A stretch of 64,000 bases of DNA from Cymodocea nodosa. Lineage: Eukaryota; Streptophyta; Magnoliopsida; Alismatales; Cymodoceaceae. Below are positions 11,991 to 61,733 of this stretch, in pieces (positions within the stretch are counted from its first letter, which is position 1; every line of letters begins with the position of its first letter). The stretch covers positions 565,501-629,500 of the forward strand of contig CM072339.1 in the NCBI GenBank assembly GCA_036874045.1, written 5' to 3'. The notes under the pieces were generated by a model. It did no database searches. It had not been told where the DNA came from and saw only the letters and a list, made by a program, of their open reading frames with translations. The position numbers and the translations under genes are program-made.

Positions 11991-14084
11991 GGTGGAATAG
12001 GTACTAAGTTAATAAGTCATACTGTAAAATTATGAGAAATGGTAATTAAACAAAGACTAAGACATGTAACAAAAATTATAAAAAATCAATTTGAATTTAT
12101 GTTGGGTGGTCTAACAATAGAAATTATTCACTTAGACAATTCATATAAAATATTAAAGTTAAAAAAAAAGACCTCTACATGATTTTCATTGATTAAAAAA
12201 AAAACTTAGGATAAAGTACCTAGAAACCTATTATAGTGGATTTTGAAAAGAAAAAATACTTATAAGATATATTGATATTATAAAGGACATGATAAAAGAG
12301 TAATTATTAATATTAAAACTAAGAAATTTTCAATAGACATAAATTTAAACTAAAGATCATCTTTAAGTCTATATCTATTTGTCTTAGATAGAGATGAAAT
12401 AACGAAGAAAATTTAAGAAAAAATACCTTGGTGTATGATATTTGTTAATGACATCATTTTGGTTGACAAAAATAAGGTAAAAATTAATTCTAAATTAGAT
12501 TTATAAAGAGATACATTAAAGTATAAAGGATTTAATTGTCATTTTCTCATCTCTGCACACCACATGAGTTTGACACGCTGAAGTTGCTCATGTGTGTGAC
12601 ATCTGCGCAGCAGCCACTGTACTTCAGCATTTCATTTCTCCATTCTTCAACTTCAGCCCACAGATCTATTCATCCAATGGCTACCAAGTTTGAACACAAC
12701 CCATATCTTTTTTCCCCTTCATCCATTCACTCACCTGTAATATGACTTCTCATTGCCAGCACAACATCAACATTCATAGATTTCTGCAAGATGTCATTGC
12801 TAGCACATGCAAGTCTGTGAATGCAGAAAACTAAATTTGGTAACGAAATGCTGCAATCTTATTACATGAGCCTGTTACAGGTGCAGGCAGGGCTACTCGC
12901 ATGTTTCCATAAGAATCTCGTGTAAAGATTTGCCACAAATTTTCTTGTTTTCCCCACCGTCTGGCAGATGATTCTGAGTTGTTCTTGCCTTTCATGTCCA
13001 CCAGAGAGAAGACGGTAAGAAAGTGGACATGAGATCAATGATTGGGTCATGGCCACCAAGACGCAATAGATGGAGGTGCACTTATTGTGCACCCTGTGAG
13101 GAAATCCAGGTCCTTGTAGTTCCATGGTTCAGGGATGGAGTAAAGCATAGCTTCACTAAAAGAAATCAATCTCAACAACAATCCTAAACCGGCCACGAGA
13201 TATCAGACTTGCTGTTTAGTTCCACATTTTATACCAACTCTGACAAGTACCCTTCGCAATGCATGTTCCATCTTGCGATCTCCTTCTACACTTTTAACAC
13301 CTTAATTTCCACACAAAAGGCACGTTAAATTAAATCATTCCAAATGCATATGCAGAATCACTGAGAGATCCTAGATATAATTCAATGAACTTAAGCTTAG
13401 TTAAAGTCAACACTTGGAGTTACATCTGCATTGAATAGCTTCCAATTATTTTTTGAGATCTTGCAGGAAAAGCTTAGCACTGAAATGGATGCGAGGTACC
13501 CAACTCAAATCATATTTTCTTTTTTTGAAAATTTCTTGCACTGAACTTAGGTTTGAACTTAAATCTTTTCTTAAGAAACTTAGATCATGTTCAAGCAAGC
13601 ATATTTATTGTGCTAGACTTTATACTATCTTTTTTTTTGATGGAAATTGGCATTGAACTTGGAAGTTGGGACTCTTCTTAAGGAAGGCATGCCCATCTTC
13701 ATCGAGTTGCCCACTGTTATTAGAGATCACCGAACAACAAAAAAACCTCAAGTATCTTTTTTATGGCCTATCTTTTACTTTCTGTCTATTGCTAATTTTA
13801 CAGTATCCTCTCTCTATATATTTTCCAGGAATTGTTAATACCTTAAACATTAAGATATTATTTCACTTTGAAACTAAACAAAAACATTACCATTATTGAA
13901 AGAAAAAAAATTTCACAATCCAATATTAATATCATTTTGACTGGTTGCCAAGAGATTAGCCATTTTCTGCAGAATATGTTATACTTGTATCATATTGACT
14001 CCACATAGGCCATCATACACATTACTCTCAAGTTGTGCACTCAAATATGAGACCTTGAGGCATCCCAAGCACTTCGCAATGGAA
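11991..14084. other. AT-rich intergenic sequence
   Basis: No gene is supported. The part from about 12,000 to 12,530 is strongly AT-rich. Short open frames at 12.5-12.7 kb and 13.45-13.9 kb have no recognisable domain. The segment ends where similarity to the second copy of the tandem duplication begins. Confidence 0.5.
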
Positions 14085-15563
14085 TCTCAATTTTAAGAGA
14101 ATTACTTGATCGCCAAAGAGAATGAAATTTGATGTTTTCTCTAAAGCTCAAAGTTCATGAAATCAAAATCAGAATTGCCATAGCATCATTGCATCTAAAT
14201 AAGTAAACATCAGCTCAAAATTCAAAAAAATCGTTGCAAAATGATTGCATATTATTAGAATAACCTGGTTTCCAAAGGATCTCTTTGTTTGTATTTTGGA
14301 TTATTTTGGTGCTAATGGGGTATACTAATTGAAAAATTAAAACACCCATTACATGAGGTTTTTTCATTCTCTTGAAAAATAATAAAGGATCACTATCCTT
14401 ATGCAGTATAATGCACTCAAAAACTGAAAAAATGGACCCTTGATATATACGTGTGTAGCGCGTACACTGACAGTTATTATAGGAACCATCTATTTGTGTT
14501 TTATTTGCATGCTATGGCATGCCATGTAAATAGTTTTTCATTATTAGTGGTCAATGTATCTTTATTTGATCATGTCATTTATCTAATTAATTTGACAACA
14601 GTGACAACTGTATGCATGTAAATATATTTATATTAAATTTATAGCATTTTTTCAAAAAAAAACCATTTAAACCCCCATTTTTAAAAATTCTTTAATTTCC
14701 GATAGTTATAATGCCTTCTTTCCATTTTTACAACATTGGTTTAGATTAATCAAGTTTTGGACTGAAAAGACTAAGAACAACTTCAATTTAAGAATATTAT
14801 CATTTTATGCCTAAGTAGGTATAGGTTAGTTTGATCAAGGTTATTTCAAATGGTGCAAAGCATGAACCAATACAAAATGTAGAGACTAAATGCTACACTC
14901 GATGAATGGAAGCCACTTCTAAGTTTCCAAATCATCTGCTTGTGATGATGGGTTTTTACAAAGATGTTAGACGCCCAAATGAGAGAAACCGAAACATCCC
15001 AAGGTTTAATATCATATTTCACAGATTAAAGCGGTAGTCTTGACTAAATAAAGATTATGATCAACCACTATTACTAATATCAACTTCAACTAAAGCGATT
15101 TGATTGTTGAATTCGTGATTGGGCCTATGTTTAATTGTTATGAAATCAAGCACTAAAATTTGCTTGCTATCATGTTTAATGGAACGGACCTTGAAAACAC
15201 GACGTGGAGAAAGACACTAAAAATAAAAATGATGTCGAACATGCTAATTTCCATTCTATAAAGTTAGAAGTTTGATTGTTCCCTACTCATGGGACATTGT
15301 GCACACATATAACAAATTAATACGATGACAAACTAATTGAAAAGCACACCATAAGAGAACATGCTTCGCGATCTCTATTGTAGATTTTCATCACCGTAAA
15401 TTCTGCATAGAAAAGTTCGAAATGTCTACACACAGAGACCAAAATTTAAGGCATATCCAATAGTCCAGTGGAGACACGTTAAAACCAATTAAAATGCAAC
15501 AAGAGGAGGGGGCCAAGTCGGCAAACCTGGTTCTTCTCGCGTGATAGCAACGGAGCGTTCAGC

Positions 15564-16350
15564 TTAATGTTGTGTCCTCTGGATGCTCTTGATGTAGATG
15601 CCTATCGATCTCCTCCTCTGTTGTGAACCTCCCAATCCCAAGCCTTATCGATGCATGCGCCGTGTCCTGTTGCGACACCATGGCCCCTCAGGATACACAT
15701 AAGACAGCTCCAAGCTAGCAGTCATACTACAAGCACTGCCACTCGACATTGCCACCTCCTTAAGACTTAAGCCCCAACGGAAGATTCTCGCCATCAAAAT
15801 ATGCAAATGAAAATTTCAAATTTCTAGGGTACCTGTTATCAACACTCCTCCCATTGATCATAAGTTTTACGATCCCCTCCAACCTCATCCGAATCCCATT
15901 TAGAAGTCAGGAAAATCCGCTTGTTATCACATTCCATCGCTTTAACAGCCAATTTGCACGCCGCCCCCGTACCAACAGCCAACGGTGTCGGCACCGTCCC
16001 ATTCCTTATACCTTCTCTGTCATGCCCAAGGCCACTGTCCGTCAGTGCTCTACTCGGATGCCTCGGCCTCCTCCAACGCACCAACCTCCCTCGGCCCTTA
16101 AATCTTATGCCTGCGCATTGCCATCAAGATTTCGACAAGTTCAATATAGAATGGGATGGGTTTTCAGACTCATGCATTACGGGCTAAATTCGTGAAAAAC
16201 CTGAAATCTACCTGGTGGGAGATTAGAAAGTTTGGGAGATGGCATATACCATCTACCAGTTGCCAAGTGCGCAACAGCAGGAGTATCGTCCCTGATTGCG
16301 GCATTCTCTCTCCTATTTCTATCACGAACAAACAAGCTCTTTGTGAGAAC
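15564..16350 (-). pseudogene. NFS1: Broken, intronless NFS1 (mitochondrial cysteine desulfurase) copy, unit 1
   Basis: Reading the - strand in shifting frames gives conserved NFS1 pieces in the correct order: AAIRDDT, a match to the FNVPFHTD region, HKI-GP--VGAL, then GIRNGTVPTPLAVGTGAACKL, SSGSAC, ASLELSYV, IGRFTTEEEIDR and finally IKSIQRTQH followed by a stop at 15564-15566. These correspond to the C-terminal half of the plant enzyme, which supplies sulfur for iron-sulfur clusters in mitochondria. Several frameshifts and stops break it, and about 25 residues between EEEID and the C-terminal IKSIQ motif are missing. No introns are visible, so a retrocopy is likely. The 5' limit is uncertain because similarity fades beyond 16,350. 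Confidence 0.85.
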
Positions 16351-17009
16351 ATGGATATTAACAGGAAAATTGATAAAATAAAATGATGAGAAATGTAGAA
16401 TCAATTGATAAATCAATCCTTCAAGAACGGATACCCTTCTCTCTCGCCCCAAGCAAGTTAAACTCATGGTAACTCCCTCATCATTAAAAAGAAACATTCA
16501 ATGAAGAGGTCAATTCTTCGTGAGAATATGTGATGGTGAGGTAATTCCTTACTGCAATTTGATTGTGCCTGATCCGCTACAGTTGAGCAGGCCACGTTCA
16601 GTCGATTTGGATTGCGCTAATACAATCCAATTACAACCCATGTACTAACTAACATGGCATGATCACAACCCAAGTCTTGGCACGGCCCCAATCGACCCGT
16701 GAAAAGGCCTTTCCTCCCTAAAATGAAGTGGCTACGGCAGTCGTTTGTCTTCGGCAGCAAGCTGTCCAAAGGAACTAGGCAAATTTCCAGATCCCCATTC
16801 ACCAATCCCTGAACTCCGCCAATGTTCAAATCGAGCAGAGGAAGTCATCCCCTTTCGCCACCACTTCTCTAGCTTTCCCTTTCTCAGATTATTCAACTTC
16901 AACGAGACAGTGACTTGTACCTAAACCTTTTCTTCCTTATCTAGAGTCTTTGAGGTGGACTTCTTGTTCTACGTCTAACCATGTGCGCTCTGTTTGTACT
17001 TTTTTCTTT

Positions 17010-18010
17010 TTTTTTTATTAAAAATAAAACGATAAAAAATAATAATAATAGTAAAAAAATAAAGATGATAATATTATTTGTCTACTAAAAGAAATTAAGA
17101 AATAGGATGTTTTTGTAATTATAGTAAATTAAAAAGTTAATAATTTTTTTAAACAATAAATTAATAAAATAAATTAGAAAAAAATCATATATGAAAGTTA
17201 ATATTTTAAATATTATAATATACATTAAAATTTAATTAAATACAAATGTAACATGTGAAATAATATATTTGTAATTAACAAAAATAACATTGTTTATTGT
17301 AATTTAAATTTTTTAAAAAATAGACAACATACTACGTGAAAATATTATATTATATTATATGTTATATAAAGAACATAATTTGTTTATAAATTTCATCAGT
17401 TATTTATTTAACATTCATTTCATTAATGTAATATATTCCTTCTTCTTTGTTAATAGTAGAAACGTTGTTAAAATCATCAATATTCATTTTAACTGATTTA
17501 TTTATAAGATTTTTAAGTAAATATTCTTACGCAATGTTATTTATTTATTTAATGTATTATTTATGTTATGCTAGAATATGTTAACGTATTATTTAATATT
17601 ATTAAGTTGTGTTGAAATTAACGTTATTTATTTGATATATTATTAAATTGAATTAGAATATGTTAATGTATTATTTATTCTTGTAATGTTAACATTATTA
17701 TACTTTAACGCAATATAATCTTATATCATTTTTCAACATTATTTTTTATTTTAATCTATTATAATTATAATATGTTATTATTTATTTACTATTATAATCA
17801 TACTTCGTTGATATTATGTTAAAATATTATTATTTATTTTAATCTATGGTAACCATAATATATTATTTATTATTATAATTACAATTATTATATTTTAATT
17901 AATTATAATTATATTGATTATTATATTATAAATCGGTATCGATTTTTGTCGTTTTCAAAGTAATAAAGTGAAAAATAACAAAAAATATTTTATTTAATAC
18001 AAAAAGATGA
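17010..18010. repeat. Extremely AT-rich block
   Basis: About 1 kb composed almost only of A and T, with irregular short repeats such as ATTATTTATTTTAATCTAT and AGAATATGTTAA. It lies between the NFS1 pseudogene and the receptor kinase of unit 1 and has no obvious counterpart of this length in unit 2, so it was probably gained or expanded after the duplication. Confidence 0.8.
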
Positions 18011-18986
18011 TAAAAGCAATCTCTTTTCATCCCTGGAGGTACAGATTCCTACGTGGTTCTCAACACAATTCGTCTCCTTTTTTTTATGCCGAGTCTAAAA
18101 GGTAATGGGTCAACACAATTTGTTGACAAATCTGTTTTCCACATGGGAAAAAGGAAAGGCTCGTATGTAAGGTACGTCAAACGTCATTTGGGCTGAATGC
18201 GACCTAATCAATAAAATAATGGCCATCCAAGTTCTAATTTGCTTCTTTTGACGGTGACTTTTGGGTAAAATAATTCGTTTAGCTTTTATTTTAATTTTTT
18301 TGACACGAATTTTGAAAATTTAGTAGGAAACCCTTTACATGTATATTTTACAAAATCCGTAACATTTACGTATTCTCTTTGGACACATGCATGCAACAAA
18401 GTGTTTGGTTAACTGAAAGGCTTGATTAATCACCACCATATCTCACATTTAAATTTGACCCCCGCAACTTTTACATAAGTTAATCTCACCCAGTTTTCTG
18501 AAATACACTAATTGTTTTAAAATTAAAATAAAAAGGCCAGCAGAAGTTACATTTTCTAAAAAATATATTTAGATGAGAATCACTTGGAAATAAAACGACG
18601 ATGAAACGGTATCTTTGAAGACGCAAGCGACAAGTTTTTCAAGAAGGGACAGATCATCATCCGTCGTCGAACGTCGCTGTCGTACGACGACGTAATACGT
18701 ACACTTCTATTATTTTCCGGTACACGCCATCGACCTCTGGTCCGGTGTGTGTAATTAATTAGCGTTCTTGAAGACGTCCACCGGCAAACTGGTACCTACC
18801 ATTAATCATCTTTCTTCTCTACTTTGTCATTACATGCAATATGAAAATATAGAGTAATAGAATAATGACACTGCTTGTCTACAATCCATCATAAATAAGA
18901 ATCACCTCTACAAACGATCCACAAGATAAGAAACCTCGGTGTTCGATCTTCTTCCGACGCCATTGGAAACCAGAAGCGGTGTGGAC

Positions 18987-21014
18987 ATGTTTGGCATCAA
19001 CGCTACTTCGTCGTTCTTGTTCTTGTTCTTCTTCTTTGTATTCTTCCCATGGCATCATCAACTGGAAGCGGCCTCCGACGACACGTCCTTCACCTACAAC
19101 GGCTTCGATCATGAAATCTTCAATCTTTCTGGCTGTGCCACTATCAACAAGCAGAACGGGAGTCTCCTCCAGCTCACCAACACCAAACGCTGCAATGGCC
19201 TGGCCTTCCGCTCAATCCCCGTTCCTTTCCGGAGCTCGTCGCAGCCACGCGAAATCCTCTCCTTCTCCACCACTTTCGTCGTTGCCATCATTCCCAAGTA
19301 CGACTCCGCAATCTCGTTTGGGTTGGCGTTTGTTGTTTCCCCGTCCAACCATCTTCAGCCCAGTCCGAGGCCTCCTTTCTTCGGCATCTTCAACTCGTCC
19401 AACAACGGCAGCGCCTCCAACCACATACTTGCCGTCATCCTCAACGAGGTCAGGAACAGCCGCGTTGGAGTCCACGTCAACGCTGCCTCTCCTCAAGTAC
19501 AGAGAAGAGCTGCTTACTTCGAAGGAGGGCGTTTCAAGAACATCTCCTTCGCCGACGACAAGATCATGTACGTCAGCGTGGACTACAACGCCAAGGACAT
19601 GGAAATGAACGTGACCATGTCTCCGTTCAGCAAGGCAAAGGCAAATCTCACCGGCAACCGCCCCTTTCTGTCTACCAAGATCAATCTCACCGACGTAATA
19701 CTGGACACCATGTACATGGGCTTCTCCGGCATCTCCGCTAGCGCTCCGACGTCGCACTTCGTCCTTGGGTGGAGCTTCCAACTGAACGGCCGGGCTCCTC
19801 CGCTCGACTTTTCCAGACTTCAGCTGGACCAACTGCCGAAGACTACCACAGAAGGCAAACCTTCCGTTCTCAGGATATTGATACCTATTCTGTCGTCTCT
19901 GGCGGTACTTGTGGTAGTCGCGGGCGTCGTCTTGGCGGTGAGAAGAAGGATCAAGTTTGCGGAAGTTATCGAGGATTGGGAGATGGAATACGGACCTCAT
20001 CGGTTTTCCTACAAGGACTTGTACGTGGCAACCAAAGGATTCAAGGACAGCAAGCTTCTCGGAATCGGAGGGTTCGGGAAGGTGTACGAAGGGGTCCTGC
20101 CCAAATCAGAAAGCCAAGTTGCCGTCAAGAAAGTTTCTCACAACTCCAGACAGGGGATGAGGGAATTCGTGGCCGAGATCGTCAGCATGGGTCGGCTCCG
20201 TCATCGGAACCTGGTGCGACTCCTCGGCTACTGCCGCCGCAAGGGCGAACTCCTCTTGGTCTACGACTTCATGCCCAACGGGAGCCTCGACAAGTTCCTC
20301 TTCGACAGACCTAAGGCCACGCTCGACTGGAACCAACGGTTCCATATCATCAAAGGCGTGGCCTCGGGACTGCATTATCTGCACGAAGGGTGGGAGCAGC
20401 TTGTCATCCACCGAGACGTGAAGGCCAGCAACGTTCTCCTCGACGGCGCGCTCAACGGTAGACTGGGAGACTTCGGCCTCGCGAGGATGTACGACCATGG
20501 GACGAACCCACAGACAACCCACTTGGTGGGCACCTTGGGGTACATTGCACCGGAGCTAACGAGAACCGGCAAGGCCACGACATCGACCGACGTGTTCGCC
20601 TTCGGCACTTTTCTCCTCGAGGTTTCGTGCGGGAGGAGGCCGATCGAACCACGCGCACCGAACGGCGACGTCATCACGACAGAATGGGTCCTGAAAAATT
20701 GGACAAACGGAAACTTGCTTTCGTCCGTGGATCCTAGTTTGGACATGAACTACGCGGCGGAGGAGGCGGAGCTGGTGTTGAAGCTCGGGTTGCTCTGCGC
20801 CCACTGGATGGAGACCGCACGGCCGTCCATGAGACAGGTGCTGCAGTTTCTGGAAGGGGAGCAGCCGCTGCCGAAGCTGACGGCGGGGTACTGGAAGGAC
20901 GACGTGGCGTCGATGAGGTGGAACGAGAATTTCGACGACTACAACATGAGGTCCAACTCCACGTGGACGGTCGCGACGGCCACCAGCTCGATGTTTCTGT
21001 CAAGTGGACGGTGA
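18987..21014 (+). CDS. L-type lectin receptor-like kinase (clade IV/SIT-like), unit 1
   Basis: Single exon, 675 residues, the usual LecRK length. The open frame extends upstream to 18939, but without an ATG; the first in-frame ATG is at 18987. A hydrophobic signal peptide covers about residues 7-25, a legume-lectin domain about 30-276, a membrane helix 297-318, and a Ser/Thr kinase about 345-625. Kinase landmarks are the glycine loop from G359, Lys381, HRD with Asp477, and DFG with Asp495, so it should be catalytically active. The juxtamembrane EYGPHRFSYKDLYVATKGF is typical of clade IV receptors such as rice SIT kinases. In the lectin domain the metal-binding E-x-D near residue 151 is I-L-N, and the following acidic loop is missing. 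At the position of the paralogue's start codon this gene has TTG. Plasma-membrane location is inferred. Confidence 0.93.
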   Translation: MFGINATSSFLFLFFFFVFFPWHHQLEAASDDTSFTYNGFDHEIFNLSGCATINKQNGSLLQLTNTKRCNGLAFRSIPVPFRSSSQPREILSFSTTFVVAIIPKYDSAISFGLAFVVSPSNHLQPSPRPPFFGIFNSSNNGSASNHILAVILNEVRNSRVGVHVNAASPQVQRRAAYFEGGRFKNISFADDKIMYVSVDYNAKDMEMNVTMSPFSKAKANLTGNRPFLSTKINLTDVILDTMYMGFSGISASAPTSHFVLGWSFQLNGRAPPLDFSRLQLDQLPKTTTEGKPSVLRILIPILSSLAVLVVVAGVVLAVRRRIKFAEVIEDWEMEYGPHRFSYKDLYVATKGFKDSKLLGIGGFGKVYEGVLPKSESQVAVKKVSHNSRQGMREFVAEIVSMGRLRHRNLVRLLGYCRRKGELLLVYDFMPNGSLDKFLFDRPKATLDWNQRFHIIKGVASGLHYLHEGWEQLVIHRDVKASNVLLDGALNGRLGDFGLARMYDHGTNPQTTHLVGTLGYIAPELTRTGKATTSTDVFAFGTFLLEVSCGRRPIEPRAPNGDVITTEWVLKNWTNGNLLSSVDPSLDMNYAAEEAELVLKLGLLCAHWMETARPSMRQVLQFLEGEQPLPKLTAGYWKDDVASMRWNENFDDYNMRSNSTWTVATATSSMFLSSGR

Positions 21015-21420
21015 TCGGCCTCCGTTTGTGCTTGTTTTGAATATCGCCTTTTTGTCGACGCTTGTTTTGTGTATCTTATCCTCGTCCAAATCGACTTCGA
21101 AACGATAGATCTATTAAATTCCAACTTAAATACAACGTTATATAAGTTCAGGGCTTGGGGCTTGTTTCTTTTTCGTTTTCGTCCATGTAAAATTTTTCAC
21201 AACTTATCTTCTTACATGTTACTTATTTATATTTTATAAATATAAGTTTTCATAAATATACTTTAATATCGATTAAATTTTAATTCAAAACTAATTGATT
21301 ACGAGTCCAAAAATTGCGAGCCGATGAACCTTCCGCCAACAGGATCCTTGAACAGTACTCAAATCACCGGTGATCATGGTCCGTGTGGGTCAGCAATAAA
21401 TTTATTATCATAAATAATTT

Positions 21421-22606
21421 TGGATCACCTGTGCGACGTCAACAACCGCACCTGCCTTTTTCTTTGTTTTATTTTTTGGGCATGTGGACGGTGGACCGCT
21501 CTCATCTGCCGACAACACTTATTTATTTGTTCTGCACATCTGGACCTATTGACTTGTACAAGTTTTTATTTCTACGGCAAAGCGACACGTAAGTACAAAA
21601 CAAAACATGCGAAGGAGCTAATTCTCTCTTTACTTACTCGTCGACCTTATCACCCTGTCCACGAACGGTGGAGGCTCACTAAAGTTATCAACATTCGAGG
21701 TAATATTTAGTAGACCATTGACCGCTCCATCTTATAACTCATTTGACAAAAAATAATTACATCTAGCTTAATGGTTGCATTTAAAACATGTTAATTGGAT
21801 CAAACCTAATCATGCCAACTTGATCTAATGTAGTCAAACAATATCATCGATATATGATTTTTTTGAATTATACGGAAGTACAATTCGGTTAAACACAAAC
21901 CTGCCACAAGCAATATAATTGACATAACACGAGTGAGCCTTTTTTAAATCGTTATATAGTTTACAAAAATGATATGTCGAAAATCAGACCAAATTTTTAT
22001 ACTTTGATCGTACCGATTTCATTATATTGATTGCAAAATCAATACGACAAACTTAAAAAATTTAAAACTTTATGTGAAAATAAATATATCGTCTATAAAA
22101 ACAACATGCTAAATTTTACATTCACATTCAAGAGAGAATTTTTAACTTAGGTTAGGTTACCTTCTTGTTGACTATATATATTTTATTGTTGTCTACGTAC
22201 CATTAATTTTGAAAATAAATGATGACGTTCGATGTTGTCGTCTGCGAGCGATTTATTATTTTGAAAATAAATGACGCGCAAGCAGACAAACAATGAAATT
22301 TTGCTTACAAACGAAAACACGACTAATATCAATAAAATCGGTCAAATTGATCCTCGATGAATCAACGAGACCAATCAGCCGAACATGGACTGACATGTGA
22401 TCATGACATTATTACAATGTGTGGCATGTAGGTTTGATGCAACCACCAACTAATCATACAGATACTAAATTGTTGCCTATGTATTAATTACAAGGTCATG
22501 TGGTTCAATAGGATTCATAACCGCATTTACTATTGTTGATTATAAATACCACAGTAAAGAGCTTTTCCCAACTTCAAACCTAATTTACATCATTCATTCC
22601 TACAAT
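21421..22606. other. Spacer between the two duplication units
   Basis: AT-rich sequence without a supported gene. Short open frames at 21.4-21.7 kb have no recognisable domain. The second duplication unit begins near 22,607. Confidence 0.5.
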
Positions 22607-24245
22607 CTAAATTTCAAGAGAATTTCTTGACTACCAAAGAGAATGAAATTTGATGTTCTCTTTAAAGCTCAAAGTTCATGAAATCAATATCAAATTGCTA
22701 TTGCATCTAAGTAAGAAAACAAGTGCTCGAAATTTTTTTAAAAATAATCGTTGCAAAATGATTGCATATTATTAGAATAACCTATTAAAACCCCATTTTA
22801 AGACCCATTTCTAGAAATTCTTGAATTTCCATTATTTATAATACCTTCTTTACATTTTTACAACATTGGTTTGGATTAATCAAGTTTTGAACTAACATCA
22901 ACTTCCATTTAAGCATGTTGTCATTTTATGCCTAAGTTGGTATAGGTTAATTTGATCTAGATAATTACAGTTGGTGCGAAACATGAACTTATTATATATA
23001 CATTCTTAGTGGTATTGTATAGCATCATGTTATTGTTCGCCTTCCGCTCCTCTACATGATTACAGTCACAACTTCGTAAATTTTGTATTATTGTTTACCT
23101 GCAGTTTCTGTTCGTAGTCACGATAATAATCTCACGTGAATATTCACTTTTGACCTCTTTAATGCCACCATGGTGTTGTTTTTATTTATTTATTTTTGTA
23201 TATTTATCGTCATGTTTTTACAAGAAAATACGAAGAGAAAAGGAAATATGAAAGAAGATGAAAAACATAAAAAATATATATACATGTGAAATGATGAAAG
23301 ATAAGCGGAAAAGATAAATAATCGAATTGTGAATGAATGCAGGCATATATAAAAGATACATGGAGGACATATATGCAAAAATAAAATGACGATGAAGAAA
23401 TATATGACTGGGGCGTACTCTTGAGGCAACGGGCATTAAATATATGTGTAAGGAAATCAAATATATGTATGTGCAAAAAAAAAGTGGGATACGTATGTAT
23501 GAAATGACCTTATATACGTATCAGATAAAATATTCGAGTACATATATGATGAACTGATATATGCCGATTAAGACAAAATATAATATGTATATGTGGAAAA
23601 GATAAATATTCGTTAAAGAATAAATTATCAAACAGATTATTCGTATCATAATATGTATTTGATACGATTAATATGACGTAAATGAGACGTCCGATATAAG
23701 GTACAAAATTAATAATTAATTCTGGAAATGTCTTGCATATTACATATGTATATCTTTTAATATTCTTGCAACATTTCTAATATAAAAAAGCCCATGTTGA
23801 CAAATGACAAGACGACAATGCTTCGATAGAACGAAGGATAACGTGGAAAAAGTATTAAATGATGTCGAACATGCTAGTTTCCATTCTATAAGGTTAAAAG
23901 TATCTGCAATAATGATTGTTGTTCCCTTCTCACACCACATCGTGCACACATATAACAAATTAATACGAGGGCAAACTAATTGAAAAGCATGGCATAAGAG
24001 GACATGCTTCCCAATCTCTACTGTAGTTTTCCATCACTGTAAATTCTGCACAGGGAAGGTTCGAAATGTCTACACACACAGGCCAAAATTTGAAGCATAT
24101 CCGATAGTCCAGAGGAGATACAACAAAACCAATTAAAAAGCAATAAGAGGAGGGGGCCAAGTTGGCAAACCTGGTTCAGCTTCTTCTCATGAGATGGCAA
24201 TCGAGATCCCTAAACCGGTCTTCCTTCCCTTATTCGTTTGCCTCC

Positions 24246-24730
24246 TTAATGTTGTGTCCACTGGATGGCGATGTCTAAACCCTACCGCCCCCATCGATCT
24301 CCTCCTCCGTTGTGAACCTCCCGATCCCAAGCCTCGACGCCGATGCATTCGCCGCGTCCTGCTGCGACACCACGGCCCCTCCTCAGCATGCACATAAGAC
24401 GGCTCCAAGCTAGCAATCGTACTACGAGAACTCTCCTTAGGGCTCAAGTCCCATCGGAAGATTCTCCCCATCAACATATGCAAATGAAAAGTTCAAATTT
24501 CCAGTGTCCCTGTTCTCAATACTCTCCCATTGATCACAAGTTTCACACTCACCTCTATAACCTCGTCTGAATCCCATTCCAGAAGCCGTCCCCAAAGTCC
24601 CGACCTCCGCTTGCCATCACATTTTCATCTCTTCACCAGCCCGATTTGCACCCCGCCCCTGTACGAGCAGACTGTCGACGGCGTCGGCACCGTCCCACTC
24701 TTTATCCTTCCTCTCTCGGTATCCGATGCG
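24246..24730 (-). pseudogene. NFS1: Broken, intronless NFS1 copy, unit 2
   Basis: On the - strand, pieces of the C-terminal part of cysteine desulfurase follow in order: the SGTVPTP region, GNLNFSFAYVDGENLPMGL, a match to ASLEPSYV, IGRFTTEEEID, and DIAIQWTQH with its stop at 24246-24248. Frameshifts and stops separate them. As in unit 1, about 25 residues before the C-terminus are missing, which suggests the deletion predates the duplication. The copy keeps less 5' sequence than unit 1 and the similarity ends near 24,730, where AT-rich DNA begins. Confidence 0.85.
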
Positions 24731-26201
24731 GTTTATTTATGCTGACAAGACTTACACAATTCCTTTCCGCAGTAAAACTAAAATTACATTTAGGTAAATG
24801 TTTTATTTAAGTGCAAAGTGACATGTTATTAATAAAGTTAATGAGTAATTAGTAGTAGTAATTGATCGATATGTATTTATTATTAAAATTAAAATTATTA
24901 TAATACCTAATAATAAATGTAATTATTAAATATTATATTATATGATTAATTAACGTAGTTGTATTAAGATAATTTTAGTTGATATAATCACTTTTAACTA
25001 AAATGAAATTTCCTAGAGAAATATAATTTAAAGAATTTTTTTTTTAAGTTTAAATAATGGTGTAAATGTAGGTTGATGGTCTTGTAATCTTAATATGTTT
25101 TGTACGGTTATTTTGGAAAATAGGAATGCCACGCCTTCAGATCATACTTGAAAATACATTATAATCTACATTCGATATCTGTGGTCCGTGCTAACTAGCC
25201 ATAACGGACATTAAACGTCAAGCTGCCATAGATATTAAAGTTGGCCTTATTCTATTGTAAGGTACTCAATTTTTGAATTTTTATTTAATCGTTATTTTAA
25301 TAAATTTGTTTACTTATATAATATTAAAAACTTGATCTTTACTTAGATGTTATTTATAAATAATATTTTATGTCATCGTAAAAGTTCTTATTTTACTTTT
25401 ATAATGATAACGAGCTTTCATATATAAATTTTGTATTTATTTAGTAGCTATTATGGTACCTTTTGAATGAAATTTATTCTGCCCTTTTTTATTCCTGGAT
25501 TCTTACCCTATTATTTTATTGTCTTGTCATAAACTCCTCGTGGCATTTACACGAGGGCCACTAATTGTTTGCGTTATTTTATTCTTACGAAAGCATGTTA
25601 TTTATATGAGCAACCATTTAATATTTGCACTCGCACCGCTGATACTTTTAATGCGATCAATAACTATGTGATTTTAAAATATTTTTGTAAATTTTTTATT
25701 GGTTACGTTTTTTACGTGAAAAAAGAAATCATTGAATATTTACTGATAAAAAATGATTACTGCAATAAATTCTAATCACGTTTAATTGTATTTTTTGCTT
25801 GGTTTTAAAAAGCGATACCATAAAACAGTTGCCCTTGGACATTTGGTAAAGAGGTTAGCCATCGATTTAATATTATTTGGACATTTGGTAAACAGTTACT
25901 CATAAAATTTTATACAATTTAAATATTGGGTAAATATACTTTGCTGTAAGACAGATTTCTGATAACTTGCTTATCAAACAATAAACCGTCGGACATCGAT
26001 GTAAGTTTGGGAACGCCTGTCCGAACCCAACAACGAAAAACCACCGGAGCGCCATTACAATCGCTGCAACGATGGAGTAATGACACTTATCCACCACCAT
26101 AAATGACCGTCACCTGCCACAGACGGCATTACATCACGGTCCTCTATAACAAACGAGTCGCAAGGCAAGAACCCTCTGTGTACTTCTTTCCTCCGACGAC
26201 A

Positions 26202-28244
26202 ATGGAAACCAGCAGTGGAGCGCCGCACATGTTGTTGTTGTTGTTGTTGTTGTTCTTCTTCTTCTTTGTGTTCTTTCCGTGGAATCATCAACTGGAAGCG
26301 ACCTCCGCCGACACGTCCTTCACCGACGAAGCCTTCGATCCTGCCGGCTTCGATCTTTCTGGCTGTGCCAACATGAACAAGCAGCACGGTAGCCTCCTCC
26401 AGCTCACCAACTTCACCCTCCGCTGCAGTGGACTGGCATTCCGCTCTATCCCCGTTCCTTTCCGAAGCTCGTCACAGCCACGCGAAATTCTCTCCTTCTC
26501 CACCACTTTCGTCGTTGCCATCATTCCCAAGTACAAGTCCGTCGTCTCGTTTGGGATGGCGTTTGTAATTTCCCCGTCCAACCATATTCAGCTGAATCGG
26601 AGGCCTCCTTTCTTCGGCATCTTCAACTCGTCCAACAACGGCAGCGCCTCCAACCACATACTCGCCGTTGTCCTCAACGAGATCAGGAACAGCCGCGTCG
26701 GAGTCCACGTCAACGGTGTCGCTCCTCAAGTATGGAGAAGAGCTGCTTACTACGAAGAAGGGCGTTTCAAGAACATCTCTTTCGCCGACGACCAAATCTT
26801 GCACGTCAGCGTGGACTACGACGCCAAGGACATGGAAATGTACGTGACCATGTCTCCGTTCCGCAGGGCAAAGGCAAATCTGATCGGCAACCGCCCCTTT
26901 CTGTCTACCAAGATCAATCTCTCCGACGTGATACTGAACACCATGTACATAGGCTTCTCTGCCACCACCGGTAACGCTCCGACGTCGCACTTCGTCCTTG
27001 GGTGGAGCTTCCGACTGAACGGCAGAGCTCCCCCTCTCGACCTTTCCAGACTTCCGGTGGAGCAATTGCCGAAGACGACCACAGAAGGGAAACCTTCAGT
27101 TCTCACGACATTGATATCTTTCCTGTCGTCTCTGGCGGTACTTGTGGTCGTCACGGGCGTCGTCTTGGCGGTGAGAAGAAGGATCAAGTTTGCGGAAGTT
27201 ATCGAGGATTGGGAGGTGGAATACGGACCTCATCGGTTTTCCTACAAGGACTTGTACGTGGCAACCAAAGGATTCAATGACAGCAAGCTTCTCGGAGTCG
27301 GAGGGTTCGGAAAGGTGTACAAAGGGGTCCTGCCCAAATCGGAAAGCCAAGTTGCCGTCAAGAAAATTTCTCACGACTCCAAACAGGGGATGAGGGAATT
27401 CGTGTCCGAGATCGTCAGCATGGGTCGGCTCCGTCATCGGAACCTGGTGCGACTCCTCGGCTACTGCCGCCGCAAGGGCGAACTCCTCTTGGTCTACGAT
27501 TTCATGCCCAACGGGAGCCTCGACAAGTTCCTCTTCAACAGACCTAAGGTCGCGCTCGATTGGAACCAACGGTTCCATATCATCAAAGACGTGGCCTCGG
27601 GACTGCATTATCTGCACGAAGGGTGGGAGCAGCTTGTCGTCCACCGAGACGTGAAGTCCGGCAACGTCCTCCTCGACGGTGGGCTAAACGGTAGATTAGG
27701 AGACTTCGGCCTCGCGAGGATGTACGACCACGGGACGAACCCAGAGACAACCCACTTGGTGGGCACCTTGGGGTACATTGCGCCGGAGCTAACGATAACC
27801 GGCAAGGCCACGACATCGACCGACGTGTTCGCCTACGGCGTGTTCCTCCTCGAGGTTTCGTGCGGGAGGAGGCCGATCGAACCACACGCACCGAACGGCG
27901 ACATGATCACGACGGAATGGGTCCTGAAGAATTGGACAAACGAAAACTTGCTTTCGTCCGTGGATCCTAGTTTGGAAATGAACTACGTGGCGGAGGAGGC
28001 GGAGCTGGTGTTGAAGCTCGGGTTGCTCTGCTCCCACTCGCAGGAGACCGCACGGCCGTCCATGAGGCAGGTGCTGCAGTTTCTGGAAGGGGAGAATCAG
28101 CTTCCGAAGTTGTCGACGACGTACTGGAAGGACGAGGAGACGCCGACGAGGAGGAACGTGAGTTTCGAGGACTACATGATGTCCTACTCGCCGACGTCGG
28201 TCGCGGCGGCCACCAGCTCGATGGTTCTATCGAGCGGACGGTGA
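26202..28244 (+). CDS. L-type lectin receptor-like kinase (clade IV/SIT-like), unit 2
   Basis: Single exon, 680 residues. I chose the ATG at 26202 because it directly precedes a leucine/phenylalanine signal peptide (about residues 10-23). An in-frame ATG at 26103 would add 33 residues and bury the signal; a TATA-like CTATAAC at 26144 lies between the two. The layout is signal peptide, lectin domain to about residue 282, membrane helix about 303-324, and kinase about 351-631 with Lys387, HRD Asp483 and DFG Asp501. It closely resembles the gene at 18987. Differences are denser in the ectodomain than in the kinase. The lectin metal-binding segment is altered in the same way (AVVLNEIRNSRVG). A start-proximal leucine run is encoded by TTG repeats. 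Confidence 0.93.
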   Translation: METSSGAPHMLLLLLLLFFFFFVFFPWNHQLEATSADTSFTDEAFDPAGFDLSGCANMNKQHGSLLQLTNFTLRCSGLAFRSIPVPFRSSSQPREILSFSTTFVVAIIPKYKSVVSFGMAFVISPSNHIQLNRRPPFFGIFNSSNNGSASNHILAVVLNEIRNSRVGVHVNGVAPQVWRRAAYYEEGRFKNISFADDQILHVSVDYDAKDMEMYVTMSPFRRAKANLIGNRPFLSTKINLSDVILNTMYIGFSATTGNAPTSHFVLGWSFRLNGRAPPLDLSRLPVEQLPKTTTEGKPSVLTTLISFLSSLAVLVVVTGVVLAVRRRIKFAEVIEDWEVEYGPHRFSYKDLYVATKGFNDSKLLGVGGFGKVYKGVLPKSESQVAVKKISHDSKQGMREFVSEIVSMGRLRHRNLVRLLGYCRRKGELLLVYDFMPNGSLDKFLFNRPKVALDWNQRFHIIKDVASGLHYLHEGWEQLVVHRDVKSGNVLLDGGLNGRLGDFGLARMYDHGTNPETTHLVGTLGYIAPELTITGKATTSTDVFAYGVFLLEVSCGRRPIEPHAPNGDMITTEWVLKNWTNENLLSSVDPSLEMNYVAEEAELVLKLGLLCSHSQETARPSMRQVLQFLEGENQLPKLSTTYWKDEETPTRRNVSFEDYMMSYSPTSVAAATSSMVLSSGR

Positions 28245-28560
28245 TCGGCCTGGATGTGACAATCATGGTGTTAATTACTTTATTTACTCCTTTCTTTTAT
28301 GGTTTTGTCGGTTGGCGTTTCCTCCCCTGCGAACCACGTTCACGTAAACTACCTTTTATAAATACGTTGGTTGTATGGCTGCCCACGTATCGAATGCTGA
28401 TCAAAATATTTTTAATCATGGTATTAATCTTGGTGTTACTCTTCTCACTCTGGATTTGCGCTAGTTTTGCGTATCAAAATCGTCTTTGAAACAAACGATC
28501 CTTTCTCTTCAGCACCGGTGATTATCGTCCGTGGGTCATCTCCAAAATTCAGCGACCTCT

Positions 28561-39227: not shown

Positions 39228-40740
39228 TCACAATAACATCTCCTGCTGTTGGCCCGACTCCTTCCTAATCTTATGAGAGAACAATCTGCAAGCGTCCATG
39301 CTGAGATCGACGGCAGCTGCAAGAGCCACAAAGGCAGCGGCGTCCTCTGTGCAGCCAACGTTCTGCGCCCCGATCTCCACCCATGGCCGGCTACACCTTC
39401 CCTCTCCTTCCACCGTCGACGACATCACGAACCCCCTGTAGCTGCTGAACGGCCACAACCCATATCCGAAATCGCCGCTCCCGTTTGGGCTGCACCCTGG
39501 GGAGCACGACATCGACGACGCCGACCTCCCGGAACCGCCCCTGAGAATGTTGTTGCCGGTGAGGTCGATGGTGAACTTGCCGCCCTTGTGGGTAGCCAAG
39601 ATGGACTCCGCAAGTAGCACTCCGCAGCTGCTCATGTTCGTGTCGGGGAGGAGCTCGAACCGGTAGCCGACGCCGTCGCCGCTGCTGCCGCCCCCACGCT
39701 CGCGCCAGGCCTCGAGACGACCCCAGGGCTTCCAGGTGCCATCACCAGGTCGGAGGATGAGCCAAGCCCCGGGATTGGAGCGGCTAACGCGGTCGGAGCC
39801 CGGAGAGGCGACGAAAGGGGTGACCATCGATGCGAGCGCCACCGGGGAGCCGGAGAGATCGTGGATTGTGACCGACCAACCTTTGCGCTCTTTCACCTGG
39901 CGCTCTCTGTCGGAGCCGAAGGAGCTCAGCCAGCTCCGAGAGCAGCTGGGTTCCGATTGCATTGATCTGGGATGGGGGAAGAACAAGCTTTAGCATTAGC
40001 ATAAGAAAATCGACTAGAGCATGATGAATATGGTAAACCATAATCTCCGTTTGATTAATCATGGGAAATTTTACTCACAAGCATCTGCTGCTCCAGTCAC
40101 TGGGGTTCCGACAGCTAAACTTGCAGGTGAACACCGGCTGCCGCATGCTTCCTTGGACCTGGAACACCTGTGGGTCACATTCCGGCTGGCCGTCGAACTC
40201 AAATACAAACCTCGGGTCCGGCTCCGCCACCACCGTGAGATACACCTGGGCAGACGCAGACGAACTTGAAGAAAGAGACTTTCCTTTCCCTTCTTTACCA
40301 ACCGTAACCCATCCGTTGTGGAACACGCAAGCCCTCCCCCCCTCCACCCCCTTCATCTCGATCGGAATGGTGACCTTCCCCAGCAACCTGCCGGAATTGA
40401 GCCCGCATGTGGTACCCCTTCTCCCGGTGTAGAACGCCACCTTCAAGCACGTTCTCCCCCCGCCGAAGATGGATTTCTTCTTCCCCCCAATCCTCTCCAG
40501 GTCGGCCCTGCCGAGGTCGAAGCTAGCAGCCAGCGTCAGCGTCTGGCCCTCCGTCGGGAAAGCGTTCTCGGGGGGAATGAGCGGCACCACGGCCGTCTGA
40601 TACGGCATGTTGTTGATCCTTATCTTGCAATAGCATGGGGTGGTGGAGGGGTGCACCCCCGACCTCGCCGGCCGGGTGGCAACCGGGATCTTCAAGGCCA
40701 GGTTGCCGACGAGCACCCGCACGAACTGACACGGGTCCAT
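39228..40740 (-). CDS. DUF1005 family protein
   Basis: Two exons on the - strand: 40079-40740 and 39228-39966, joined by a 112 bp GT-AG intron, giving 466 residues. The start MDPCQFVRVLVGNLALKIP and the later segments FTCKFSC, GWSVTIHDLSGSPVALASMV and SNPGAWLILRPGDGTWKPWG are hallmarks of the plant DUF1005 family. The length and single intron agree with that family. No signal peptide or membrane helix is evident. A Ser run (SSSSSSASA) lies near residue 155. The biochemical role of the family is not established to my knowledge, so no function is assigned. Exons are GC-rich against AT-rich flanks. Confidence 0.92.
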
Positions 40741-43814: not shown

Positions 43815-44686
43815 TTAGATGAATTCGCTGGGGAATGAGGCCTGACATGCGCCACCTGCAGCGCACGGGTCCGGAAAAGGATCCGAATACATGAAAGGAG
43901 CATCACTCGGTCCAGACCCGTTTGCAACACCGGTACCACCAGAACGGAAAAATCCGGAATCCGGATCAAGAAACCCGGTAGGGGGATCCACGAACCCGGC
44001 CTGGTTCAAATGGGCCGTCGGGACGCCGGCTTCCGGCAAGAACGGCAGCGACGTCGGCGGAGGCAGCGGCTGATTCAGATTGTCCCGTCGCATGAGCTCG
44101 TCGACTCGCATGGCCACGCGACACCTCAGTTGCTTTATTTCACTCTCGAGCCTAGATAGCCTGTCCAGGTTCAGGCCCTCGAAGTCTGGGCCGGAGTCGA
44201 CACCGATGCTTCGGGCCGCGTTCCTGGCCATCATCTCCAGCGGCGTTCTCCGGCCACGTTGTTGGTCCAGGAGAGAGCGGAGCTCCATCACCTGCCTGTT
44301 CAGATCCCGGGCTATCACGTTACGGTGGCAGGTGAGCATAAGGGTGGTGTTACGATGATGATAATATTCGTGCTCTTCGTTGGTGGGGTTGCACAGCAAG
44401 AACCGATCGAGGACTGTGTCCATGTCGGGGAGGCCAATGGAGTACGGCCTCCCAGCGGGGGAGAAGACGACTATGGCGACTTCGGCGCCGCAGAGGGTGG
44501 AGAGTTCACTGGCCTTCTTGAACAGACCGGTACGCCTCTTGGAGAAGCACACCTACATGCAGTATAATCATACTCCAATGCTAGACGCGAAATGCAAAGC
44601 GCAAGAGAGTAGTAGTTTGAGAAGAATTTCACCTGCAATGCTTCGTCGTTCTCAATCTTCTTCATCTGAATCTTCTGTCGACCCAT
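43815..44686 (-). CDS. Type I (M-alpha) MADS-box transcription factor, AGL62-like
   Basis: Two exons on the - strand: 44633-44686 (18 codons) and 43815-44552, with an 80 bp GT-AG intron, giving 263 residues. The MADS domain occupies residues 1-60: [18 protein letters not shown] from exon 1, then [21 protein letters not shown] and [16 protein letters not shown]. The absence of a K-box and the motif order [12 protein letters not shown] after the domain mark a type I M-alpha factor; relatives act mainly in female gametophyte and endosperm. Residues 95-165 could form a helix; the C-terminus is rich in Pro, Gly and Phe. The intron splits the MADS domain, unusual because many M-alpha genes are intronless. 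Without splicing the frame shifts and stops early. Confidence 0.9.
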
Positions 44687-46064: not shown

Positions 46065-49000
46065 TCATCCATCTACATTCAGGGGCTCGCTCTTGGCCAA
46101 GCTCAAGAGGAAATCTGTAAATATATGTTCATATCCTGGCATCTTTCCATATCCTGCACAAGAACAGAATCATGATTGTATCTCGTTAGAGAATTGTTGC
46201 AATGAACAATAATTGCTGAGAGGTGAGTGAGTTCCCCAAGGACATCATCTCTAGTACAATTTGATTGTAGAAAACACAGAAATATTTGATGCTCCTTAAG
46301 TTTCGCATCTATAATTTGAGAATGGATTGACTAAATTGCAGTTAAATAGAGAAAAATTAAAAGCATGGTGAAAGAGATTTTACATGCCTGGAAAATAATT
46401 TATATCGATAACATAATACCGATCCTTTGTCCCATGCTCTCTGATTATATCTATGTTGAATAGTTGGAGACCCTGAACAAGAAAGACAATGATAAATTAC
46501 GGCAAGTGGTTGTGCGGTTAATTTCACTTCATATTAGTTAAGCACCAATATTACCAATCGCCGATGAAGCTCCTTAGCAAGCATTTCAAGCAAAGGTTTC
46601 GGAGGATGCTCTGCAAATACATAAATAATAAACCGTGAAGATGGAGAAACTAAGATAATATAGCATACAAAGATATAAAGGGATGAAGTAAGACACAAAG
46701 ACATAAAGTGCAGCATGCGAAAGAAGAAATGATAACCCCACCCGCAATGCCAGGATCAAGATCTGCCTCATCTGCTGAGGCTGTAGCACATGAGACCCTT
46801 GGGAATCTTAAGACACCAGCTTTATTGGGAGGTCCGCGTTTATCAACGTCCGGAAGAGAAAACCGTCTGACTACCTTTATAGCATCCCCGACAATAAAGA
46901 CTTTAAAAAGAACTCCTCCTGTATAGATATAAGAAGTTCACGTGGCTCCAGTAGGACACCATAATTACAACATTGAAGACTTATATCACACAGATTAGGA
47001 TACCATGATTGACAAACTCTTGGAGAACCAAAGGAGGTTCAAGCTTTGACAAGGAGATTTGATCATAAGCAAGTGAGAGTTCATGTGATTTTGCACTTCC
47101 ATCTGCAACTAATGGCTTTGCAACTGCAGAAGATGATGAAATTTAACTGACAAAAATAATTTTCTTTTGTCAAGTATTCAACTACCACTACTATAAGAAC
47201 TCAAAGTAAAGAATAGCATTGTTATTCTCCTTTTCTATTCTTGATTCATCAGTTGATATTGCTGTATTAACATAAAAAGCCAATATTAAGTAAAAAAAAA
47301 AACATTCATCAAATTTCAGTAATTAGAAACTTAAATTGGATCCTGGGATACCAGATATAGTTAAAATGAACTACAGCAAGGACCTTCAGAACGTCACAAT
47401 CATCAGTCAATGTAAATAGCAGGCAACATGTTTGGCATATGCGTAAGTAGTCATAAACAACAAATAGCATCCCAACAAATTAGGTATTTTCACATCGAAT
47501 ATAATAAATAAAAGCAAAGAAGTTACAATAGATTCTAGTTTCAACACAACGATGAACCCAGATGTAATAATACAAAGATATATATAATTACTTTTCTTAA
47601 CATTGTCAATATCAGGAAAAAGAATTTACTGCATAAAATGACCACTCTGGAAACGAAGAACACCAAAAATGGAATATGACTAAACCACATGTTGACGTTT
47701 GACTTAATCAATGAAAGAGGAGAAGCATGCCTAATGGTAGATTCAGCCCAGCTTTGTTGACTGCATCTGGAATAGATGATGGATCTCTCATGATAACTAG
47801 CTGCCTAGGGACACCTACTTTCCCTGAAAAATAAACAGCTGACACATAAGATAACAAAGAACCGATGGTACAGTATGTAGTATTATAACTGAATACAATA
47901 ACAATAATTAAGACATAATCTCACTACGTGAGGTTGGTTACATAGATTCTTTTCTTTTATGTATTTCTGTGATCAAATCTTCAGTTAAATTACATAAATT
48001 TAAATCTTTTTTTTACAATTACTAACTAAGTAGTTTAAGTTTTCATCTACTTCTTCTGCATTAAATAATTGTTCTCTCCCAATTGGTGTATTCTTTAATT
48101 TCATAAGAATATGACTAAACTACTTAAGCCAATTTTCTTGTTTTATTTTCAATTAGTGCATCTTCTATTTATTCTTAATAAAATTATTTTTTAACTTATC
48201 CCTTATAATATTACCATTTATAAATCTAAACATATGTATCTTAGCAATACTAACATTTTATGTATGATTATACTTACTGCTTAGCATTTTGAGTCATAAA
48301 GTATGGCTAAGTAAATAATAATAATTTTATAAAATTTTCTTTCTAATTTTAAAGATATCACATAACACTCTAAAAGTATTTTTTTCATTTCATTTATCCT
48401 ACTTTAATCATATAAATAACATCTTTCATAAGTTCACTGTTGCTATTTATTATAGATTCTAAGTATTTAAAAGTCTTAATTTTATGAATTTTATGATTAT
48501 CTAAGTATATGGATCCTACTAGATAAATAGTAAGTTTTCATAAGTCCATTTAGATAAATCGTAATTTTATACAATTTTCCTTTTAATTTTAAAGGTATTC
48601 CTCTATCACATAACAGTCCAGAAGTATTTTTTCATTTCATTTATCCTACTTTAATCTTATAAATAACATCCTTTATAAGTTAACCACTGCTATTTATTAT
48701 AGATTTTAAGTATTAAGTCTTACTTTTATGAATATTATGATCATCTAATATATATCTTTCTTATTATTCTTATTTTCATTAAACTTACATTCTATATATT
48801 TTCATTCTGACGAACATAGAAGGCTAAAAATTCACAAAATTGATTATACACAATGGTCTTTTTAAATGAACTTTGAACCATAAAAGCATGGCAAAAGAAT
48901 TGTTCTGTAGGAGACAATCAAAGAATTGATTAAAGATGGTAGGCTTTATAAGTTCACCATAGCTATCTATCATAGATTCTAAATATTTAAAAGTATTACT

Positions 49001-61100: not shown

Positions 61101-61733
61101 AGATTTTTCTAGGTATCTATAGTTGCACTTAATTCTTCCATTGATATTTGTGTCAACACGTCCTAAGAAGAAACTGATACTTTTCCGAACTATCATGATG
61201 TAAAAATGCAGTCAAATTCAGGTCAAGAAGTTCTACTTGTAAGATTTCAATGAACATTGCCATTGAAACGTGATATGTACAGTTATTGGATTTGTAACCA
61301 CAGCCAACTGACGTGGACTACATCCATACTTCTAGGTGGTGTTTCAGATAATTGTCATACATCTTGCAGATTCATCTATAGCTCATTCCATTCTTGTTTA
61401 TAATGTTATGCTAAATTGACATTATTTGCAGTATTTGCTAAATTGTCACACATCTTGCAGATTCATCTATACCTCATTCCATTATTGTTTAGGATGTTAT
61501 TCTAAATTGACATTATTTGCAGTATTTGCTAAATTGTCACACATCTTGCAGATTCATCTATACCTCATTCCATTATTGTTTAGGATGTTATGCTAAATTG
61601 ACATTATTTGCAGTATTTTGGGCCAACCTTTTTGCATGGTGCAAGTAAATCGGTATCATCTCCACAATACATTGACCCGTATGCGCTGTTGGAAGATGAA
61701 GAAATATCACAAATGGCTCCGCCTTTGAACTGA
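58191..61733 (+). CDS. Probable plastid-targeted membrane protein of unknown function
   Basis: Four exons: 58191-58326, 58405-58649, 58776-58883 and 61614-61733, giving 202 residues. The N-terminus is rich in Ser, Arg and Pro without acidic residues until about 35 (MATLQTGRLVFSPLVAFPRP), typical of a chloroplast transit peptide. A charged stretch with ESLFMKELKRRGM follows, then one or two closely spaced hydrophobic helices (about 131-165, LLLSLGATFFLSFGPLILV) encoded by exon 3. The C-terminus SPQYIDPYALLEDEEIS ends in MAPPLN. It resembles uncharacterised plant chloroplast proteins; I assign no function. Intron 1 is 78 bp and open in frame. Intron 3 (2.7 kb) ends in a triplicated acceptor. 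The donor of exon 2 (GAG|GTCCGT) is weak. Confidence 0.82.
59723..59778. repeat. 23 bp tandem repeat in intron 3
   Basis: Two perfect copies of ATTTTTCTAGAGCCACAAAATGC-type units (59,723-59,745 and 59,746-59,768) plus the first nine bases of a third. Confidence 0.88.
61351..61613 (+). repeat. 91 bp repeat present three times, each with a splice acceptor
   Basis: Copies begin at 61,351, 61,442 and 61,533. Each runs from ATTGTCA-ACATCTTGCAG through CATTCCATT-TTGTTTA to GACATTATTTGCAGTATTT. The last copy's TTTGCAG is the acceptor used for exon 4 of the plastid-protein gene. The first copy is the most diverged; copies two and three are nearly identical. Confidence 0.92.

Follow-up and report, generated by a model that had tools for sequence, protein, structure and literature searches.

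A probable tandem duplication of an L-type lectin receptor kinase together with a broken NFS1 fragment in Cymodocea nodosa

Two intact L-type lectin receptor kinase (LecRK) genes lie in direct orientation in a 64,000-nucleotide stretch of the Cymodocea nodosa genome (the whole of which is referred to here as the window), each accompanied by a dead fragment of NFS1, the gene for mitochondrial cysteine desulfurase, on the opposite strand. This arrangement raises the question of whether a single block carrying both genes was copied once, whether NFS1 was already broken when this happened, as the original prediction proposed, and whether the pseudogene can serve as a neutral clock for the receptors beside it.

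Content and collinearity of the two units

Self-BLAST of the window (E up to 1e-8, rows > 100 bp) places unit 1 at 14083-21021 and unit 2 at 22604-28251 as a direct repeat, whose homology falls into four collinear block pairs (Table 1). Order and orientation are equal in both units, each consisting of a non-coding flank, a minus-strand dead NFS1 fragment and an intact L-type lectin receptor kinase, which bears out the predicted pair of direct units with the same three-part arrangement. The self-comparison, for which a dot-plot of 14-29 kb had been proposed, also reveals collinear homology outside the coding regions, in which 1165 bases align over three block pairs of non-coding or pseudogene sequence; these are in order but patchy. 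Blocks A and B are separated by 390 bp in unit 1 and by 3 bp in unit 2. The idea of unit-wide homology therefore holds for the four collinear blocks but is weaker than described, with homologous sequence making up 3329/6939 bp of unit 1 (48%) and 3374/5648 bp of unit 2 (60%), kinases included, and stopping near the kinase coding borders.

With low-complexity masking on, no homology was found between 16022-18909 and 24718-26148 or between 14868-15218 and 22989-23847 (edges at ~15200 and ~23829), and when parts of these intervals were compared with dinucleotide shuffles nothing exceeded the shuffles. AT-rich unmasked matches between 17.0-18.0 and 24.8-25.5 kb, the best of which (17860-18027/24869-25043) has E = 1e-10 and 66% identity, overlap one another, occur on both strands and were rejected as low complexity. 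Inverted repeats at both ends of an unaligned gap were found neither among the 25 listed of 38 pairs in 14000-19000 nor among the 13 pairs in 22500-26300. The first of the two interval pairs links the NFS1 and kinase blocks, and its lack of homology under masking would fit a duplication of the NFS1 fragment and the kinase in two separate events which produced the same order by chance. Such a coincidence is very improbable, since order and orientation are equal and the divergence of the blocks is equal within error.

The identity of the NFS1 fragments is supported by a 53-residue peptide of copy 1 that matches PDB chains named 'Cysteine desulfurase, mitochondrial' (E = 2e-6), presumably of human origin. 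Frameshift-tolerant alignment to E. coli IscS gives 76/167 identical residues for copy 1 and 59/130 for copy 2, with corresponding values against the mitochondrial enzyme of 115/249 (weak ends included) and 68/131. Frameshifts occur in both copies, and how many stop codons they contain varies with the alignment used (1 and 4 vs IscS). The predicted dead minus-strand NFS1 copies are thus corroborated by the PDB match, the identity to IscS and the frameshifts, and we see no function for the fragments. Apparent extensions of homology at 16140-16325 in copy 1 (alignment to the mitochondrial enzyme) and past 24717 in copy 2 were rejected, as 7/100 and 18/100 shuffles, respectively, were as good. 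For further NFS1 pieces in the window, the best tblastn match of full IscS outside the fragments has E = 0.89 and the first 135 IscS residues gave nothing better than E = 4.0, although heavily broken pieces could escape both searches.

Each unit also contains an intact receptor kinase, as had been claimed. Legume-lectin and kinase domains lie in one intact frame in both receptors, with PF00139 covering profile positions 2-247 and 2-248 of 250 and PF00069/PF07714 near full profile length in both proteins, which may also carry clade IV-like motifs. Receptor 1 has TTG at the position of the copy 2 start codon, and its signal peptide probably begins at a different methionine, encoded by an in-frame ATG at 18987 (18957-18989); both starts are predicted ones. 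Searches with the kinase proteins at E up to 0.01 gave matches at the two loci alone in the window.

Elsewhere in the window, two adjoining frames at 39228-40740 (-) correspond to the two halves of DUF1005 (PF06219; profile 1-209 and 209-434) and are probably two exons of one gene. Other frames encode a MADS-box (SRF-TF; 43815-44552, -, E = 3e-21) and the end of a MYB DNA-binding repeat (1340-2068, +, E = 1e-7). Taken with the LecRK genes, these DUF1005, MADS and MYB frames point to a plant. Tandem repeats occupy 48322-49197 (main period 277 bp, 1.9 copies, 84%, at 48671-49191, with a further 84% pair just upstream) and 61350-61618 (91 bp x3, 96% matches). Rfam at gathering scores gave no match over the whole window, and a tRNA search found none.

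Table 1. Coordinates of the paired blocks, genes and NFS1 lesions in the two units
Feature	Unit 1	Unit 2	Strand	Remarks
Block A pair	14083-14266	22604-22783		non-coding flank; 18/175 aligned bases differ
Block B pair	14657-14867	22787-22988		non-coding flank; 31/202 differ
Third block pair (NFS1 and 3' sequence)	15227-16021	23857-24717	-	self-BLAST; global alignment extends to 15200/23829
Sequence 3' of NFS1 stop codon	15200-15563	23829-24245	-	
NFS1 pseudogene copy 1	15564-16127		-	5'-truncated; from ~IscS residue 199 (~197 of mitochondrial enzyme) to stop codon
NFS1 pseudogene copy 2		24246-24717	-	breaks off at 24717, equivalent to mitochondrial-enzyme residue 234 and IscS residue 236
C-terminal loss junction, copy 1	15591-15615		-	74 nt missing (24.7 residues) vs mitochondrial enzyme
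C-terminal loss junction, copy 2		24270-24304	-	67 nt missing (22.3 residues) vs mitochondrial enzyme
Shared +3 insertion	15714-15731	24409-24426		NFS1 copies 1/2
Shared 7-nt frameshifting insertion	within 15756-15771	within 24433-24448	-	copies 1/2
Insertion of unequal length (copy 1, +3; copy 2, +2)	15835-15855	24512-24531		NFS1
Shared +3 insertion	16004-16018	24700-24714		NFS1 copies 1/2
Block D pair (kinases)	18910-21021	26149-28251	+	self-BLAST, Pfam
L-type lectin receptor kinase 1	18910-21021		+	probable ATG at 18987; reads to a stop codon ending at 21014
L-type lectin receptor kinase 2		26149-28251	+	probable ATG at 26202; reads to a stop codon ending at 28244

NFS1 lesions and the order of events

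Lesions were scored with E. coli IscS and the PDB mitochondrial enzyme as references, and the small in-frame insertions may be parental. The NFS1 frame would be broken both by the 7-nt insertion and by the C-terminal loss. This loss, predicted as about 25 residues before the C-terminus, is of the right size in both copies (Table 1), but the junctions are not identical and differ by a net 7 nt, the global alignment opening two gaps in copy 1 (10 and 1 nt) and one in copy 2 (4 nt). The simplest reading of the aligned junctions would be one ancestral C-terminal deletion followed by later small indels; two overlapping deletions are possible. Private lesions include an 18-nt gap in copy 2 and, when copy 1 is aligned to the mitochondrial enzyme, a stop codon at 16098 within sequence absent from copy 2.

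Because the 7-nt insertion and the C-terminal loss are common to both copies, NFS1 was most likely already a dead gene when the block was duplicated. The mismatch between the junctions leaves confidence in this order unaffected, as the order rests equally on the 7-nt insertion. Several indels of the two pseudogenes, which might have been unrelated, are shared, the 7-nt insertion among them, and together with the like divergence of the blocks they support the earlier claim that NFS1 was broken first, which is most likely correct.

The further claim that the fragments derive from a retrocopy fares less well. Retrocopies are often 5'-truncated with the 3' end kept, and both NFS1 fragments have this form, so that their truncation would also fit retroposition. 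As a possible poly(A) remnant, no T run of at least 8 is present 3' of the fragments in 13901-15560 or 22501-24250; T-rich 20-mers are confined to 23174-23186, where unit 2 shows no homology to the other unit, and the shared flank extends, with gaps, ~1.5 kb beyond the copy 1 stop codon. Missing introns are informative only where the parent gene has introns, and plant NFS1 is probably intronless. No statement on the intron state of plant NFS1 was found among the papers listed or in passages of PMC5791162 and PMC3764374. According to PMC7935947, poly(A) and 3' bias are non-discriminative in its plants, a moderate effect apart, and the absence of introns is by itself a poor means of telling a retroposed copy from a genomic duplicate of a retroposed paralogue. 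The 'retro' label is thus not borne out, the poly(A) remnant being absent even though this hallmark is non-discriminative in that paper, and the sequences are therefore called NFS1 pseudogene fragments here.

Divergence and the borders of kinase homology

Over the non-coding and pseudogene blocks, 164/1165 aligned bases differ (0.141; 18/175 + 31/202 + 115/788), corresponding to a K2P of 0.157 (0.133-0.183). The kinase gene, compared over codons 41 onward in the listed frame, has a dN of 0.083 and a dS of 0.126 (0.095-0.160), with 31/280 fourfold sites changed (0.111). The latter proportion does not differ from that of the non-coding blocks (Fisher p = 0.21), and with CpG positions excluded the counts are 123/1013 non-coding and 17/200 fourfold. 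The proposed comparison of synonymous receptor divergence with that of pseudogene and flank therefore gives like values (dS 0.126 vs K2P 0.157), an agreement which supports one duplication event. By domain, dN/dS pairs are 0.101/0.156 for signal plus lectin, 0.055/0.115 from hinge to juxtamembrane, 0.049/0.091 for the kinase and 0.229/0.198 for the tail, and the overall dN/dS of the receptor pair is 0.66 (0.47-0.89). The pseudogene was suggested as a neutral clock, and together with the flank it is usable only roughly as such: the 1165 aligned bases give wide intervals, and the kinase domain may have been homogenised later.

Homology of the kinases reaches little beyond the frames, extending upstream of the likely ATG by 77 bp in copy 1 and 53 bp in copy 2 and past the stop codon by 7 bp in both. 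For alignments just outside this block, 83/200 shuffles were as good at the 5' edge and 29/200 at the 3' edge, and relatedness of the sequences upstream of the two kinases was undetectable in the masked search and, for parts, against shuffles. A match between the kinase 3' flanks, equalled by 2/200 shuffles, was read as low complexity. Beyond the kinase stop codons, a small patch (21365-21392/28513-28538) has a score that was reached by 0/200 and 3/1000 dinucleotide shuffles but also by 16/600 real pairs of other window pieces, and is no more than suggestive. As the kinase edges are not above shuffles, a separate history of the kinases is possible.

In one such history the kinase pair would predate the duplication of the NFS1 block, and gene conversion would afterwards have homogenised its coding regions. 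Homology would then be expected to stop close to the coding borders and to peak in the kinase domain, as it does, and the idea agrees with flanks beside the kinase frame that cannot be aligned above shuffles, the small 3' patch excepted. Additionally, fourfold sites changed less in the kinase domain (7/123) than elsewhere in the gene (24/157, p = 0.012) or, in a post hoc comparison, than non-coding positions (164/1165, p = 0.007). However, the domain split was examined only after the values of a windowed comparison were known, the scan-corrected permutation p is 0.093 and the longest-run p is 0.13, the kinase gene taken over its full length shows no difference from the non-coding blocks, and constraint on the kinase domain could give an equal pattern. 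The low fourfold change in this domain is a hint of conversion or constraint, and an older, homogenised pair is unlikely. It is likewise unlikely that conversion acts on the coding region alone, and there chiefly on the kinase domain, keeping the pair alike as the lectin ends, the upstream regions and the flanks drift apart.

A probable single duplication and its meaning

The two units are probably the result of a segment with a broken NFS1 fragment and a lectin receptor kinase having been copied once in direct tandem. In this proposal, the minus-strand NFS1 fragment and the plus-strand L-type lectin receptor kinase would have sat on one ancestral segment, with the 7-nt insertion and the C-terminal loss already present before copying, an ancestral state that is the simplest reading of the shared lesions. 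Copying would most likely have occurred via unequal crossing-over or a similar DNA-level event. Private indels would then have accrued and much of the non-coding sequence may have lost its recognisability through insertion and deletion, with copy 2 changed at least at 24717, where its NFS1 fragment breaks off. Both kinases retained full reading frames. Against a single block duplication stand the kinase homology, which ends near the coding borders though other non-coding blocks align at ~85%, the two intervals that hold unrelated sequence in both units, and the C-terminal junctions with their net difference. The locus is probably an ordinary tandem duplication in which the order of events can be read from shared mutations.

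Tandem arrangement is common in this receptor family. PMC5322546 places 40% of L-type LecRK and lectin-domain genes, counted across all of its assemblies, in tandem arrays and describes nine head-to-tail arrays, with possibly stronger positive selection on tandem copies. The present pair is likewise direct and head-to-tail, but unlike those arrays it carries a dead NFS1 fragment, so that events can be ordered; the words 'pseudogene' and 'gene conversion' are absent from the main text of PMC5322546. Similarly to the plant tandem and duplicated pseudogenes of PMC7935947, the fragmentary pseudogene was copied with its flank, whereas unlike the failed duplicates described there the NFS1 fragment was most likely dead before copying and is a hitch-hiker. 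Literature searches returned no paper combining LecRK, tandem duplication, pseudogene and gene conversion, and none, with all four terms combined, on an NFS1 pseudogene in a plant genome.

The pair described here is an unexceptional example of such arrays that has a pseudogene as hitch-hiker, and knowledge of either family, LecRK or NFS1, is unchanged by it. The receptors are similar and their upstream sequences are not detectably related, which makes differing expression a sensible expectation. If the kinases were in fact kept alike by conversion within the coding region, the adjoining pseudogene pair would be an in-place neutral reference for dating it. With a single tandem duplication as the favoured explanation, the locus offers a tidy case in which events are ordered by shared pseudogene lesions and receptor evolution can be set against a linked neutral yardstick.
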